From contig NZ_LGLN01000045.1 of NCBI RefSeq assembly GCF_001293775.1, positions 22,747 to 86,746 of the forward strand: 64,000 bases of DNA, in the 5' to 3' direction. A program made the position numbers and the translations under genes. Positions 18,126 to 26,000 of the stretch are shown one piece after another. Under the pieces are notes generated by a model that searched no databases, was not told the origin of the DNA, and saw only the letters and a list, made by a program, of their open reading frames with translations. Each line of letters starts with the position of its first letter. The first letter of the stretch is position 1. This DNA is from Pseudomonas syringae pv. cilantro. Its GTDB lineage: Bacteria > Pseudomonadota > Gammaproteobacteria > Pseudomonadales > Pseudomonadaceae.

Positions 18126-18962
18126 ATGCCCGTTACGCGCAAGGTCAGCTCGGCGCCCGTTCCTGCGCCCGCCCCCGACGCAAGTCAGTCTTACAGCTAC
18201 TCGAATCTCGAGGGCAAGGACGCTGCACGCAACGCGCTTGCCGAAGAAGTGGCGTTGGCCATCGCTTACAACGGCATCAGCCAGGCCGTCATGCTGGTCA
18301 GCCCGACCGACCTGGAAGACTTCATCGTCGGCTTCAGCCTGGGCAGCGGCATCATTGCATCGCCCGATGAAATCTACGACTTCAAACTCAGCGGTTGCGG
18401 CTCGGCGATGCAGGCCGAGGTCGAAATCGCCAGCCGCGCGTTCTGGGAGCTCAAGCAGCAGCGCCGACAAATGGCCGGCACCAGCGGCTGCGGATTGTGC
18501 GGTGTTGAAGCGGTCGAACAGGCGCTGCCGAAACTGAACGTCCTGCCCGGCGCGCCCTTGCCGCCGATTGAATGGCTGGAAGGCCTGCGCCAGCGCATCG
18601 GCGAATTCCAGCCCCTCGGCCGCCATTGCGGCGCCGTACACGCGGCGGTGTTCATGGACGGCAATGGCCAGTTGCTGCTGGGCCGTGAAGACATCGGCCG
18701 CCACAACGCGCTGGACAAGCTGATCGGCGCACTGGTGCGCCAAGGCATTTCGACTGTCGGCGGCGCGGCTATCGTGACCAGCCGCTGCAGCCTGGAACTG
18801 ATTCAGAAAGTATTGCGCGCCGGCATCCAGACCCTGGTCAGCCTGTCTTCGCCCACCGGACTTGCCCTGCAATGGGCTCGCCGTCACAACCTCAATTTAA
18901 TTCACCTGCCGCAGCACAGTGCGCCGCGGGTTTATAGCCCTGCGATGGAGATTCAACCGTGA
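18126..18962 (+). CDS. fdhD: Formate dehydrogenase accessory sulfurtransferase
   Basis: FdhD carries sulfur from IscS to the bis-MGD molybdenum cofactor, which formate dehydrogenase-type enzymes need. The 278-residue protein contains the catalytic CGxC pair at Cys122 and Cys125 (TSGCGLCGVEA), the GSGII and GCGSAM glycine stretches, and the end block GREDIGRHNALDKLIG typical of the family. The stop overlaps the start of the downstream oxidoreductase by four bases (GTGA), consistent with FdhD maturing that enzyme. Confidence 0.94.
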   Translation: MPVTRKVSSAPVPAPAPDASQSYSYSNLEGKDAARNALAEEVALAIAYNGISQAVMLVSPTDLEDFIVGFSLGSGIIASPDEIYDFKLSGCGSAMQAEVEIASRAFWELKQQRRQMAGTSGCGLCGVEAVEQALPKLNVLPGAPLPPIEWLEGLRQRIGEFQPLGRHCGAVHAAVFMDGNGQLLLGREDIGRHNALDKLIGALVRQGISTVGGAAIVTSRCSLELIQKVLRAGIQTLVSLSSPTGLALQWARRHNLNLIHLPQHSAPRVYSPAMEIQP

Positions 18963-21295
18963 GCACTCATCATCAAGCCGACAAGACACCTACCCCCCGC
19001 TACAAGCCGTACAAAGGCGCGGCAGGCGGCTGGGGCGCACTGATCAGCGTGACTCAGGCCTGGCTGGGCAGTGACAACGCGCTGAAAAACCTGCGCATGA
19101 TGCTCAAGACCAACCAGAACGGCGGCTTCGACTGCCCGGGCTGCGCGTGGGGTGATTCGCCGGAAAGCGGCATGGTCAAGTTTTGCGAGAACGGTGCCAA
19201 GGCGGTCAACTGGGAGGCCACCAAGCGCCGCGTCGACCCGGCCTTTTTTGCGCGCTACAGCGTCAGCTCGCTGCTGGAGCAGAGCGATTACTGGCTCGAA
19301 TATCAGGGTCGTCTGACCGAGCCGATGGTTTACGACGCAGAAACCGACCGTTACAAGCCGATCAGCTGGGATAACGCGTATGCGCTGATCGCCAAACACC
19401 TGAACAACCTGCCCAGCCCGAACATGGCCGAGTTCTACACCTCGGGCCGCGCCAGCAACGAAGCGGCTTATCTGTATCAGCTGTTCGTTCGCGCCTACGG
19501 CACCAACAACTTCCCTGACTGCTCGAACATGTGCCACGAAGCCAGTGGCGTTGCGCTGTCGCAAAGCGTCGGCGTCGGCAAAGGCACCGTGACCTTCGAT
19601 GATTTCGAACACGCTGATGCCATCTTCGTCCTCGGCCAGAACCCCGGCACCAACCACCCGCGCATGCTGGAGCCGTTGCGTGAAGCGGTACAGCGCGGCG
19701 CTCAGGTGGTCTGCGTCAACCCGCTCAAAGAGCGTGGTCTGGAGCGTTTCCAGCACCCGCAGCACCCGGTTGAAATGCTCACCAACGGCGACCGCCCGAC
19801 CAATACCGCTTATTTCCGCCCTGCATTGGGCGGTGACATGGCACTGCTGCGCGGCATGGCCAAGTTCCTGCTGCAATGGGAACGTGATGCACAATTGGCG
19901 AATGAACCGTCGGTTTTTGACCACGCGTTCCTTAACGAACACACCGAAGGCGTGCTGGATTACCTGGCGGCCATTGATGAAACATCGTGGGACGAGATCG
20001 TTGAGCAGTCCGGCCTGCCGCTGACTGACATCGAGCAGTCGGCGCGCATGTATGCCAAAGGCAAGAACGTCATCATGTGCTGGGCGATGGGGATCACCCA
20101 GCATCGTCACTCGGTGGCGACCATTCAGGAAATCGCCAACCTGATGCTGCTGCGCGGCAACATTGGCCGCCCTGGCGCAGGTCTATGCCCGGTGCGCGGT
20201 CACAGTAACGTGCAGGGTGACCGCACCATGGGCATCAACGAGCGCCCACCGGTGTTCTTCCTCGATGCGCTGGAAAAACGCTTTCAGTTCCAGGTGCCGC
20301 GTGACAACGGGCACAACGTGGTCGAAGCGATTCATGCCATGGCCGAAGGCCGTGCCAAGGTGTTCATCGCGCTGGGCGGCAACTTCGCGCAGGCAACCCC
20401 GGACAGCCATCGCACCGCCGAAGCCCTCAGCAATTGTGATTTGACGGTGCAGATCAGCACCAAGCTCAACCGCAGCCACCTGTTCCACGGTAAGGACGCA
20501 TTGATCCTGCCGTGCTTTGGTCGTACCGATATCGACATTCAGGCTAACGGCCCGCAAGCCGTCACCGTGGAAGATTCGTTCAGCATGGTGCACGCCTCCA
20601 ACGGTCAGTTGCAGCCGCTGTCGAAGCAGATGCGCTCGGAGCCTTCCATCATTGCCGGTATCGCCAACGCGACACTGGGCAAAAAACCGGTGGACTGGTT
20701 GTGGCTGGTGGAAGACTACAACCGTATTCGTGAGCTGATCGCCGACACCATTCCTGGCTTCAAGGACTTCAACGAGCGCATCAAGCATCCTGGCGGGTTT
20801 TATCTGGGCAATGCCGCCGGTGCGCGGCGCTGGAATACCGCATCGACCCGCGCCAACTTCAAGTCCAACGCGCTGCCGCTCAAGCTTATCCATGAAGGCA
20901 TCAGCTCGACCGGTGAAGTTCCGGACCTGATCATGCAGTCGATGCGCTCCCACGACCAGTACAACACCACGATTTATGGCCTGGACGACCGTTATCGCGG
21001 CGTGAAAGGTCAGCGCGACGTGCTGTTCGTCAACGAGGCGGACATCATTCGCCTGGGCTTCCAGCCGGGTCAGAAAGCCGACCTGATCTCGATCTGGGGC
21101 GACAACCGCGAACGCCGCGTCAAAGGCTTCACGCTGCTGCCGTTCGATATCCCGGCAGGTCAGGCTGCGGCTTACTATCCCGAGGTCAACCCGCTGGTGC
21201 CGCTGGAAAGCGTCGGTGAAGGCAGCAGCACGCCGACGTCGAAGTTCGTGGCGATCCGCCTTGAGCGCTCGGCAGAATCGGCGCGGATTGTCTGA
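18959..21295 (+). CDS. FdhF/YdeP family molybdopterin oxidoreductase
   Basis: A 778-residue bis-MGD-dependent oxidoreductase of the YdeP type, related to formate dehydrogenase alpha chains. It has an early CPGCAWGD motif (Cys59, Cys62) and the cofactor-binding blocks NFPDCSNMCHEASGVALSQS and GITQHRHSVATIQEIANLML. The C-terminal cofactor domain is also present. No Sec codon is seen; a cysteine is likely the molybdenum ligand region. The natural substrate is unproven; E. coli YdeP is tied to acid resistance. Starts at GTG 18959 with GGAG upstream, overlapping fdhD, and ends before a strong terminator. Confidence 0.9.
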   Translation: MSTHHQADKTPTPRYKPYKGAAGGWGALISVTQAWLGSDNALKNLRMMLKTNQNGGFDCPGCAWGDSPESGMVKFCENGAKAVNWEATKRRVDPAFFARYSVSSLLEQSDYWLEYQGRLTEPMVYDAETDRYKPISWDNAYALIAKHLNNLPSPNMAEFYTSGRASNEAAYLYQLFVRAYGTNNFPDCSNMCHEASGVALSQSVGVGKGTVTFDDFEHADAIFVLGQNPGTNHPRMLEPLREAVQRGAQVVCVNPLKERGLERFQHPQHPVEMLTNGDRPTNTAYFRPALGGDMALLRGMAKFLLQWERDAQLANEPSVFDHAFLNEHTEGVLDYLAAIDETSWDEIVEQSGLPLTDIEQSARMYAKGKNVIMCWAMGITQHRHSVATIQEIANLMLLRGNIGRPGAGLCPVRGHSNVQGDRTMGINERPPVFFLDALEKRFQFQVPRDNGHNVVEAIHAMAEGRAKVFIALGGNFAQATPDSHRTAEALSNCDLTVQISTKLNRSHLFHGKDALILPCFGRTDIDIQANGPQAVTVEDSFSMVHASNGQLQPLSKQMRSEPSIIAGIANATLGKKPVDWLWLVEDYNRIRELIADTIPGFKDFNERIKHPGGFYLGNAAGARRWNTASTRANFKSNALPLKLIHEGISSTGEVPDLIMQSMRSHDQYNTTIYGLDDRYRGVKGQRDVLFVNEADIIRLGFQPGQKADLISIWGDNRERRVKGFTLLPFDIPAGQAAAYYPEVNPLVPLESVGEGSSTPTSKFVAIRLERSAESARIV

Positions 21296-21322
21296 CGCTC
21301 AGAGTAATTTTGAGTCGCCCAT

Positions 21323-21358
21323 GCAAAAGGCCCGTTTCATTTGAAACGGGCCTTTTGC
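21323..21358 (+). terminator. Strong terminator after fdhD operon
   Basis: GCAAAAGGCCCGTTTCA and its complement form a perfect 17-base stem with a two-base loop, 28 bases past the oxidoreductase stop. The AAAA/TTTT arms make it work in both directions. Confidence 0.9.
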
Positions 21359-21511
21359 AAGTAACCTGAGACTGTGTTTTTGAATTTAAGTTCCTTATTT
21401 AAAACAGTAACTTAGGCTTATTTGTGGCAAACGTGTTACTCGTCGGATTTGAATTGCTACATTCTTAACTTGACACCAATATCGCATCGTCATCCCTATG
21501 AGATTCCACAC

Positions 21512-21958
21512 ATGAAGTATTCCTCGATACTGTTGTTGTCTCTTGCTCTGGCAAGTGGTGTCGCATCAGCAGGCGGAACACTCGAATCAGGCTTGGGCGG
21601 CGCGGCTGGCGGTGCAATCGGTGCAGCAGTTGGCCAGCAGCTCGGCGGCACTGGAGCTTCGGCGATCGGTGCAGGTCTGGGCGGCGCAGCAGGTGGCGCC
21701 CTCGGCGCTGACCGCCGCAACCGTACAGAAGCGGCCCTTGGCGGCGGTCTGGGTGCAGCAGGCGGTAACGTTCTAGGCGGCGGGAGCGGTACAAGCGGCC
21801 TGGTAGGCGCAGCCGCGGGTGGTGGCGGTGGCGCAGCACTCGGTAGCTATCTTGGCAACAAGAGCCAGAGCGCTGATCGCCGGGATCGTGGAGGCCGCGA
21901 ATATCGGGGTAATAAACGTAACAAGCACCACGGCCATCGCCGTCACGATCGCGACTGA
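21512..21958 (+). CDS. Exported glycine-zipper protein, 148 aa
   Basis: A secreted or outer-membrane-associated protein. A signal peptide of about 19 residues ends at ASA. The mature part consists of repeated glycine zippers (for example GLGGAAGGAIGAAVGQQLGG), which suggests membrane insertion or oligomer packing. The last about 30 residues are strongly basic with a histidine cluster (HHGHRRHD), a possible metal- or surface-binding tail. Family function is unknown; glycine-zipper YMGG-like proteins are common in Pseudomonas. ATG 21512 is chosen over the upstream reading at 21422 because the signal peptide begins there. A terminator follows. Confidence 0.75.
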   Translation: MKYSSILLLSLALASGVASAGGTLESGLGGAAGGAIGAAVGQQLGGTGASAIGAGLGGAAGGALGADRRNRTEAALGGGLGAAGGNVLGGGSGTSGLVGAAAGGGGGAALGSYLGNKSQSADRRDRGGREYRGNKRNKHHGHRRHDRD

Positions 21959-24091: not shown

Positions 24092-24910
24092 ATGGAATCC
24101 CTACAGCAACCCGAGGACGACGGGATTATTCGCATCCAGCGCCTCGTGCCAGGTCAGGTCGACGTTGTGCTGGGCTCGCATCCACGTCGAAAGCGCGTTG
24201 CTGCGCCTCGCCGTTCAAAACCCTACGGGCTGTGGCTGGCAGGCTTGATCGTTACCTTATGTCTCGCCGGGCTGATCGCTTCACACCTGAAAGGTCCCAA
24301 AGCGGTACCCCTTCCCCCTGTCGAACAGCCAGCACCTGACGCCACGACAATCGATATCCAGCCGCAACCCGCGCCAGCCGCCGCAGCCCCTGCGCAATTG
24401 CGTAAGACGGCAGAGCTTTTGCCTGTCGCAGCAACCACGCAACACCCCGCCGCCGTGCAGCCGCTGGACAACTGCATGAAAAACGGCAATGTCATCGATG
24501 AGAGTGTGGCCAACTGCCGATTCGGCCAGGTGCCGCGCCCCGTTCAGGCGGAAGCAGCCAAAGGCATGGTCTCTGCGAGCTACATGGCCGACTTCAAAAC
24601 CAATGCAACGCGTAACCCTGCGCGGTCATCCAGGCCTTACAGCGTCGCAACCGTTTCGATCCGCGAATGGAATGGCCGCAATCGCTATAGCGCGCAATGG
24701 CGCGTGTACGGCAACACCATCGACGGCGACAGCGTCTGTGAAAACTTCGCCAGCCATTCATTGGAAAGAAGCGAATGCCGCAAGTCGGCACAGGTCAATT
24801 TCAAAGAACAGTGCCGTGAGTGGAGCAAGCGTTCGGCGCGAGATCGTGATGAAGCGAGTAAAAATGCCAAGCAGCGTTATTGCGAGGTAGCAGCGACGTT
24901 CTTGCCCTGA
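24092..24910 (+). CDS. Membrane-anchored protein of unknown function, 272 aa
   Basis: I do not recognise this gene. The N-terminal about 45 residues are cytoplasmic and basic (RRKRVAAPRRSKPYG), followed by one membrane helix (GLWLAGLIVTLCLAGLIAS, about 49-67). A proline/alanine-rich linker runs to about residue 125. The C-terminal domain (about 125-272) carries at least six cysteines that could pair in the periplasm. Topology suggests an anchored periplasmic domain. AGGAGCAGGA just before the ATG supports the start. It is followed by the two rsmX-like RNA genes, which have their own promoters. Confidence 0.65.
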   Translation: MESLQQPEDDGIIRIQRLVPGQVDVVLGSHPRRKRVAAPRRSKPYGLWLAGLIVTLCLAGLIASHLKGPKAVPLPPVEQPAPDATTIDIQPQPAPAAAAPAQLRKTAELLPVAATTQHPAAVQPLDNCMKNGNVIDESVANCRFGQVPRPVQAEAAKGMVSASYMADFKTNATRNPARSSRPYSVATVSIREWNGRNRYSAQWRVYGNTIDGDSVCENFASHSLERSECRKSAQVNFKEQCREWSKRSARDRDEASKNAKQRYCEVAATFLP

Positions 24911-24997
24911 ACCGGCGTTAACGCCTTGTTTTCTATGGCCTGCAGGCTTTATGCGTGTGCATGGGCAAAGCCGGAAATCGATTATTTCCCACACGCA

Positions 24998-25015
24998 TGT
25001 AAGCTAAGGCTTACA
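24998..25015 (+). promoter_or_regulatory. GacA upstream activating site (rsmX copy 1)
   Basis: TGTAAGCTAAGGCTTACA matches the GacA-dependent consensus TGTAAG-N6-CTTACA exactly. It lies about 65 bases before the proposed transcription start, the usual distance for Pseudomonas rsm sRNA promoters. A -10-like TAATAT at 25060-25065 completes the promoter. Confidence 0.85.
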
Positions 25016-25071
25016 CGTAATCGAGGAAATTGGCTATTTTGCAATGTCAGCGTGCCCCGTAATATTGGATC

Positions 25072-25187
25072 CAACAACTGGTGAACAAGGAGTTCACCAG
25101 GATCAGGGACGATCGACCATCGCCGGGAAGGCAGCCGACAGGGAGTTGGAATGGTCTTGGTACAAACCCGCTTCGGCGGGTTTTTTA
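25072..25187 (+). ncRNA. rsmX: RsmX-type regulatory sRNA, copy 1
   Basis: A predicted RNA of about 115 nt that binds RsmA/CsrA and relieves translational repression. The start is inferred from TAATAT at 25060-25065. The RNA carries about seven GGA motifs; one sits in the loop of a perfect hairpin whose arms are GGTGAAC and GTTCACC (about 25080-25098), with GGA exposed. It ends in a GC-rich terminator with T run (AAACCCGC, loop, GCGGG, then TTTTTT, 25164-25187). Control by GacA is indicated by the site at 24998-25015. Naming as rsmX is by structure and promoter, not by search. Confidence 0.8.
25164..25187 (+). terminator. Terminator of rsmX copy 1
   Basis: AAACCCGC, a four-base TTCG loop and GCGGGTTTTTT form a typical Rho-independent terminator at the RNA 3' end. 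Confidence 0.9.
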
Positions 25188-25287
25188 TTGCCTGCATTTT
25201 GCCGTCGGCTAATCGATACGATTCAATAAATACCTGACGCCAGAATAACCGCCCTCTCACTTCACGCTCAGACGTGGAAAAGTCAGG

Positions 25288-25305
25288 TATAGCGAAAGGC
25301 TTACA
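25288..25305 (+). promoter_or_regulatory. Degenerate GacA site (rsmX copy 2)
   Basis: The right half CTTACA (25300-25305) and the six-base spacer GAAAGG match the consensus. The left half reads TATAGC and fits only about three of six positions. The spacing to the -10-like TAATAT at 25350-25355 is the same as in copy 1. Activation by GacA may be weaker than for copy 1. Confidence 0.5.
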
Positions 25306-25361
25306 CGCACTGGAGTCAGTTGGCTATTTCTGAGCCGCTGCACACGCCGTAATATTGGATC

Positions 25362-25474
25362 CATCAAGTGGTGAACAGGAGTTCACCACGATCAAGGATG
25401 ATCGACCATCGCCTGGGAGGCGGCCGACAGGGAGTCGGGATGGTCTTGGAAAAACCCGCTTCGGCGGGTTTTTT
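25362..25474 (+). ncRNA. rsmX: RsmX-type regulatory sRNA, copy 2
   Basis: A second RNA of about 113 nt, clearly homologous to copy 1 and 290 bases downstream. It shares the TAATATTGGATCCA promoter/5' block, the hairpin GGTGAAC-AGGA-GTTCACC with AGGA as a perfect tetraloop, and the GATCGACCATCGCC block. It also shares the GGGAG motifs and the terminator. It holds about seven GGA motifs. It ends 20 bases from the stop codon of the convergent 168-residue gene, whose transcript probably uses the same bidirectional hairpin. Confidence 0.8.
25451..25474. terminator. Terminator shared by rsmX copy 2 and convergent operon
   Basis: AAAACCCGC, a TTCG loop and GCGGGTTTTTT. Because an A run precedes and a T run follows the stem, it can also stop the leftward T6SS operon ending at 25494. 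Confidence 0.85.
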
Positions 25475-25493
25475 GTTGGCTGCGGGAAATTGC

Positions 25494-26000
25494 CTACTTG
25501 TGTCGCGCCTTGTTCCTGCGCAGCCTCTCACGGTTTTTTTCCAGCATGTCCTGACGACGCGCGTCAACACTGCTTTCCTTGCGCTCGAACCGCAAAGCCA
25601 CGAACTCCGCACGCATTTCCCTGTGCAACTTGCTGTTGAGCAGCAACAGACCCAGCAGCGGAAAAATCAGACCCAGCACGTAGATGAACACGAGCCCCCC
25701 CGGACCATTCGACGGATACGCAGTCAGCACCGCCAACAGACTCGCCACCATCATCGCCACCAGCCCCCAAACGCCCCAACTACGTCCACGACTGATCAAC
25801 AAGCCTGCGAGCGCGAGCAGCATTGATGCGCCAATCAGAAACACGACCTGATACATGCCAATGTCGGCAACGTCGCCAAACCAGACATGGCTGACCTGCG
25901 AAGTGGCGATGACCACCGCAAAAAGAGTCAGGAACATCGATCCCAGGAACGACGGAAAGTAGCGCGCGCGAAAGGCGTAGTAATTGTGGCGGTCGGTCAT
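25494..26000 (-). CDS. Four-helix membrane protein, candidate immunity protein
   Basis: A 168-residue protein with about four membrane helices (about residues 14-34, 47-69, 75-95 and 103-122) and a basic C-terminal tail rich in R, K and E that should be cytoplasmic. No family is recognised from the sequence. The ATG overlaps the stop of the 301-residue gene upstream in ATGA, so the two are translationally coupled. A membrane-embedded partner coupled to a glycine-rich, helix-inserting protein at the end of a T6SS operon is what is expected of an immunity protein to a pore-forming effector (Tsi4-like). This is inference from position and topology. Confidence 0.6.
   Translation of the reverse strand: MTDRHNYYAFRARYFPSFLGSMFLTLFAVVIATSQVSHVWFGDVADIGMYQVVFLIGASMLLALAGLLISRGRSWGVWGLVAMMVASLLAVLTAYPSNGPGGLVFIYVLGLIFPLLGLLLLNSKLHREMRAEFVALRFERKESSVDARRQDMLEKNRERLRRNKARHK

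Follow-up and report, generated by a model that had tools for sequence, protein, structure and literature searches.

A tandem pair of rsmX genes in Pseudomonas syringae pv. cilantro and the form of their GacA sites

Tandem copies of the small RNA gene rsmX have been described in Pseudomonas syringae and in P. brassicacearum. Five rsmX genes in P. syringae strains were first reported by Moll et al. 2010 (cited by PMC7911923), and Table 1 of the citing paper, 'Tandem copy of rsmX gene in Pseudomonas', lists rsmX-3 and rsmX-4 of strains 1448A, B728a and DC3000. Within the literature searched, this paper alone treats tandem rsmX copies. In P. brassicacearum it names TATAGCGAAACGCTTACA as the site recognised by GacA and reports rsmX-1 and rsmX-2 to be exclusively GacA-dependent; its authors raise the possibility that the eight-fold lower expression of rsmX-2 stems from a few changes in its site (PMC7911923).

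An 18-bp site is reported to be essential for rsmX, rsmY and rsmZ, its position being given as -75 in rsmY and -196 in rsmZ (PMC4950607). The consensus for RsmX/Y/Z has been given as TGTAAGN6CTTACA, and diverse palindromes have been suggested to explain the differing GacA dependence of rsmY and rsmZ (PMC11837529). The sites of the three genes are aligned in a figure referred to by PMC3684763. No statement that the usual rsmX site is of the TATAGC type was found in the literature text searched, though Moll et al. 2010 or Humair et al. 2010 may show these sites.

The DNA analysed here, termed the window, is a stretch of 64,000 nucleotides from P. syringae pv. cilantro. It carries two rsmX genes on the forward strand, copy 1 at 25073-25186 (114 nt) and copy 2 at 25363-25474 (112 nt). 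The covariance search that the original prediction had proposed as a check, made with Rfam model RF02144, returned 124.4 bits for copy 1 and 125.3 bits for copy 2, more than twice the gathering cut-off of 56 bits, with E-values of 3.2e-23 and 2e-23 over the window and matches covering the full model length (1-114). A short-stretch Rfam scan gave no further family beyond rsmX's own clan. The starts lie 290 bases apart and 101 of 114 aligned columns are identical (88.6%, own alignment), which bears out the original prediction of a unit of about 115 nt present twice at this spacing; its identification of the units as rsmX genes in tandem, belonging to the Gac/Rsm system, agrees with both the Rfam scores and Table 1 of PMC7911923. 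Over the 80-base promoters, 59 of 83 aligned columns are identical.

A -10-like TAATAT precedes each RNA, at 25060-25065 and 25350-25355. Both copies are predicted to fold closely along the lines of the rsmX consensus, the first loop displaying GGA (z-scores of -3.85 for copy 1 and -6.21 for copy 2; none of 200 shuffles was as stable in either case). A hairpin GGTGAAC..GTTCACC presents GGA in a loop of AAGGA or AGGA in both, and each RNA ends in a terminator formed by a CCCGC-TTCG-GCGGG stem and six T. The TAATAT, the hairpin and the terminator had been anticipated from the letters. The expected count of about seven GGA motifs per unit needs division: six lie inside each predicted RNA, while the seventh belongs to TTGGATCC, on the promoter side between the -10 and the start.

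The pair occupies a gap of 583 bases (24911-25493) between a 272-aa forward-strand ORF ending at 24910 and a 168-aa reverse-strand ORF ending at 25494. Six ORFs of 61-152 aa overlap the gap; the four of them that were searched against Pfam gave no match. The two flanking ORFs are equally without a Pfam match, so that the gap is to be called protein-free mainly because RNA genes fill it. No counterpart of the 168-aa ORF on the downstream side was found in a search of viral_contigs. Elsewhere in the window, Rfam places Pseudomonas sRNA P34 (RF02405; 77.6 bits, cut-off 44) at 21190-21612 on the reverse strand. The match covers the end of a molybdopterin oxidoreductase ORF (18959-21295) and some of the ORF at 21422-21958, both on the opposite, forward strand.

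The pair is almost certainly the rsmX3-rsmX4 tandem of the P. syringae group, which has already been published. Copy 1 is assigned as the rsmX3 orthologue and copy 2 as the rsmX4 orthologue on Rfam score, fold, tree and published position, the names being transferred by order and spacing and not by sequence comparison with the genes of DC3000, B728a and 1448A. A search of 398 genus genomes with the 561-base region gave matches at 1e-30 in 19. In 11 of these, the cilantro genome included, a single match covers both copies; the remaining eight do not match as one, though G018 holds two further rsmX pairs of close spacing. All 11 pair genomes, chosen because they match the pair, contain two rsmX genes 289-314 bases apart according to Rfam. 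More widely, in a sample of 149 genus genomes, rsmX matches with E ≤0.001 occur in 130 and matches above the cut-off in 89, and at least 17 genomes (again including this one) carry two same-strand rsmX genes with starts within 800 bases of each other.

In a tree of 37 chosen rows, the copy 1 and copy 2 rows of the 11 genomes are split by a branch with support of 98/89; the 15 rows that represent other rsmX copies stand outside this comparison. The split is consistent with a duplication older than the pair species sampled. Concerted evolution of the two copies was considered and is not seen, given this supported separation.

A relative of the upstream ORF lies beside the pair in eight of the 11 pair genomes, the cilantro genome included, and none was found in the examined stretches of the other three (G066, G355 and G316). 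Six named loci have a relative of the upstream gene, and five of them carry the pair: those of P. amygdali, P. tremae, P. cerasi, P. caricapapayae and Pseudomonas sp. KUIN-1. The sixth lies on a short MAG contig (L039) and lacks rsmX. On the downstream side, a relative of the 168-aa ORF with 38-41% identity comes after a further rsmX at loci L044, L041 and L153 (genomes G094, G056 and G233), which suggests that rsmX and its neighbouring ORF were duplicated together; in G094 this further rsmX lies about 46 kb from the pair in the opposite orientation. The cilantro genome, G404 and G334 have four rsmX genes each, and no copy with that ORF relative.

The sites presumed to be recognised by GacA begin at -75 in both copies, and the right half CTTACA is intact in both. 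For copy 1 the site is TGTAAGCTAAGGCTTACA at 24998-25015, the perfect TGTAAG-N6-CTTACA that had been predicted and the sole perfect site in the window. This palindrome occurs at four places in the 5.92-Mb genome (none in a backwards control): before rsmY, before copy 1 and twice on contig C42. Around the latter two (C42:24362-24379 and C42:158214-158231), no Rfam family was found in the two 3-kb loci. For copy 2 the site is TATAGCGAAAGGCTTACA at 25288-25305. Scored as a palindrome with three mismatches it does not stand out, the window holding nine such matches or better against 8.9 expected, and because the palindrome match alone is not above chance the site is recognised by its position and by the rsmX site consensus. 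The form TATRGC-N6-CTTACA is found at three places in the cilantro genome, each before one of the rsmX copies other than copy 1, with one occurrence in the backwards control.

The rsmX site consensus comes from 139 distinct promoters, reduced from 256 profile matches by removing one with too little upstream sequence and 116 repeats of counted sequences, mostly the same place retrieved twice but also identical sequences from different genomes. The sample is not random, being weighted to the best-scoring matches listed for the genus and to genomes resembling the window. A right half with at least five of six bases is present in 138 of the 139, with site starts from -76 to -71; it reads CTTACA in 129, CCTACA in seven and CTTACG in two. 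The left halves of these 138 sites are more varied, with TATAGC commonest (79), then TATGGC (27), AATGGT (7), AATAGC (6), CATAGC (5), TGTAAG (3), AATGGC (3), TGTAGG (2) and six others once each. Beyond copy 1, TGTAAG was seen in this sample only at L150 (G407) and L087 (G051).

Two further features of these promoters were noted. A linker element with the consensus TT.GCTATTT stands at -43 to -34 in the 43 promoters that have TTGGATCC before the start, and falls at 25030-25039 and 25320-25329 for copies 1 and 2. The motif TTGGCYVTY begins at -44 to -42 in 25 of 138 promoters (200 letter shuffles gave a mean of 0.4 and a maximum of 3), and rsmY of the cilantro genome has a similar linker, TTGGCCTCTTC. 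The one promoter of the 139 without a recognisable GacA site belongs to an rsmX of 120.3 bits (L146 1506-1617, reverse strand; genome G203). About 60 bases 5' of this gene lies the end of a group II intron match by Rfam (1677-1750, same strand; 40.9 bits against a cut-off of 40), and insertion of the intron may have separated the site from rsmX.

The orthologous copies, going by published values, differ in output. In 1448A, FPKM at 18/28 C are 54830.1/51529.8 for rsmX3 and 338.7/737.1 for rsmX4, a ratio of about 162 and 70 times (PMC7600136 Table 2); the text of the same paper gives a two- to eight-fold excess of rsmX1-3 and rsmY over the others, which is hard to reconcile with these FPKM. All five rsmX genes are lower in the gacA::IS mutant, with log2 changes against wild type of -8.9/-7.0 for rsmX3 and -2.3/-2.9 for rsmX4 (PMC7600136 Table 2); the insertion also nearly abolishes uvrC expression (PMC7600136). 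P. savastanoi NCPPB 3335 has FPKM of 194.87/354.95 for rsmX3 and 3.54/55.45 for rsmX4, and no clear fall in its gacA mutant (log2 -0.99/-0.30 and 2.73/-0.50; PMC10875052 Table 1). In a DC3000 rsmA2/rsmA3 mutant, rsmX4 is down 14.47-/60.09-fold and rsmX3 1.43-/1.97-fold (PMC7952654 Table 1). Comparison across these papers assumes that the genes are numbered alike in them.

The original prediction had called the left half-site of copy 2 decayed and proposed that the two copies may differ in Gac response. That copy 2 lost its half-site and in consequence responds to GacA more weakly than copy 1 draws on several observations: three of its six left-half bases differ from the palindrome, rsmX4 of 1448A lies far below rsmX3 and falls less in gacA::IS, rsmX3 also exceeds rsmX4 in NCPPB 3335, and the changes in the P. 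brassicacearum rsmX-2 site leave room for site changes to matter generally. Set against this, TATAGC is the commonest left half among rsmX sites, TGTAAG is rare, and every one of the 11 pair genomes has TATAGC before copy 2. Apart from copy 1, all rsmX copies of the cilantro genome carry TATRGC, and the site named as GacA-recognised in P. brassicacearum is itself of the TATAGC type (PMC7911923). In G233, which agrees with a named P. amygdali contig (L035) over the stretches that were compared, TATAGC is present at both copies, with TATAGCCAAAGG and TATAGCGTAAGG before CTTACA; the left half is thus unlikely to cause the rsmX3/rsmX4 gap in the species of 1448A. A weaker response through loss of the half-site is therefore improbable, and decay as such is rejected by the left-half counts among the 138 sites. 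The proposed difference in Gac response stays plausible from the orthologues (PMC7600136 Table 2), with the half-site probably not its cause.

A further alternative is that duplication left one of the units, or both, as an untranscribed remnant. Promoter sites can indeed be lost, as at the G203 locus with its intron match just upstream. Both copies here, however, keep the site, the -10, six GGA motifs, the fold and the terminator at more than twice the family cut-off, and the two remain distinct and intact across the 11 pair genomes, so that this explanation is very hard to credit.

The reading preferred here is that the TATAGC of copy 2 is the ordinary rsmX form and that the perfect palindrome of copy 1, judged by its distribution, is the derived exception. 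The left half of copy 1 in the ten other pair genomes is TATAGC in eight, CATGGC in one (G316) and TGTAGG in one, G404, the nearest relative sampled (94% identity over the region). By parsimony, the palindrome would have arisen stepwise on the cilantro lineage. The three left-half changes all run toward the palindrome, a direction that is only suggestive as a sign of selection. A lineage-specific palindrome at copy 1 was not found in the literature text searched.

TGTAAG-N6-CTTACA is thus not carried by most rsmX genes in the sample, and for this reason annotation of GacA targets should not count a TATAGC left half as a sign of decay. The natural variants before orthologous copies (TATAGC, TGTAGG and TGTAAG) provide material on site symmetry and GacA response. 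An improbable extension starts from the course from TATAGC through TGTAGG, the state of G404, to the TGTAAG also found before the genome's own rsmY: if affinity for GacA rises along it, less active GacA would be needed to turn on copy 1 than copy 2, and the one tandem locus would titrate RsmA in two steps.

The way in which the pair might act can be proposed from its sequence, predicted fold and family membership, its relatedness to other pairs and its conserved promoter sites. Phosphorylated GacA would bind an 18-bp site whose centre lies about 66 bases upstream of each start, switching on the two promoters separately. Each RNA of about 112-114 nt, closed by its intrinsic terminator, would display GGA motifs in hairpin loops and bind dimers of the RsmA/CsrA family, relieving target mRNAs of their control. 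Activation by GacA, titration of RsmA and termination at an intrinsic terminator follow from established work on the rsmX family, and transcription, GacA control and RsmA binding of this pair are inferred from the orthologues. RsmX1 and RsmX5 of DC3000 bind RsmA proteins (PMC6715622).

Besides the pair, the cilantro genome (window on contig C21) has rsmX at C100:44329 and C71:5754, making four above the cut-off, together with one rsmY (C10:34499) and one rsmZ (C11:124467). RsmY and RsmZ serve the same regulon and the genome's own rsmY has a perfect palindrome 75 bases 5' of the model start, but they belong to other RNA families, with one of each above the cut-off here. The rsmX-1/rsmX-2 genes of P. 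brassicacearum NFM421 are likewise in tandem, with a TATAGC-type site and six GGA per RNA, and are GacA-dependent there; they differ in species, in being 75% identical and in their eight-fold difference in expression (PMC7911923). The closest counterparts are rsmX-3/rsmX-4 of P. syringae pv. tomato DC3000, pv. syringae B728a and pv. phaseolicola 1448A, which show the same tandem order on the same strand. Their starts are 292 bases apart, compared with 290 here, their lengths 113 and 111-113 nt, compared with 114 and 112 nt by the Rfam model, and their copies 84-87% identical, compared with 88.6%. These strains have five rsmX genes, whereas four are found in this draft genome, and relative to the ten other pair genomes the perfect palindrome at copy 1 is present here only.
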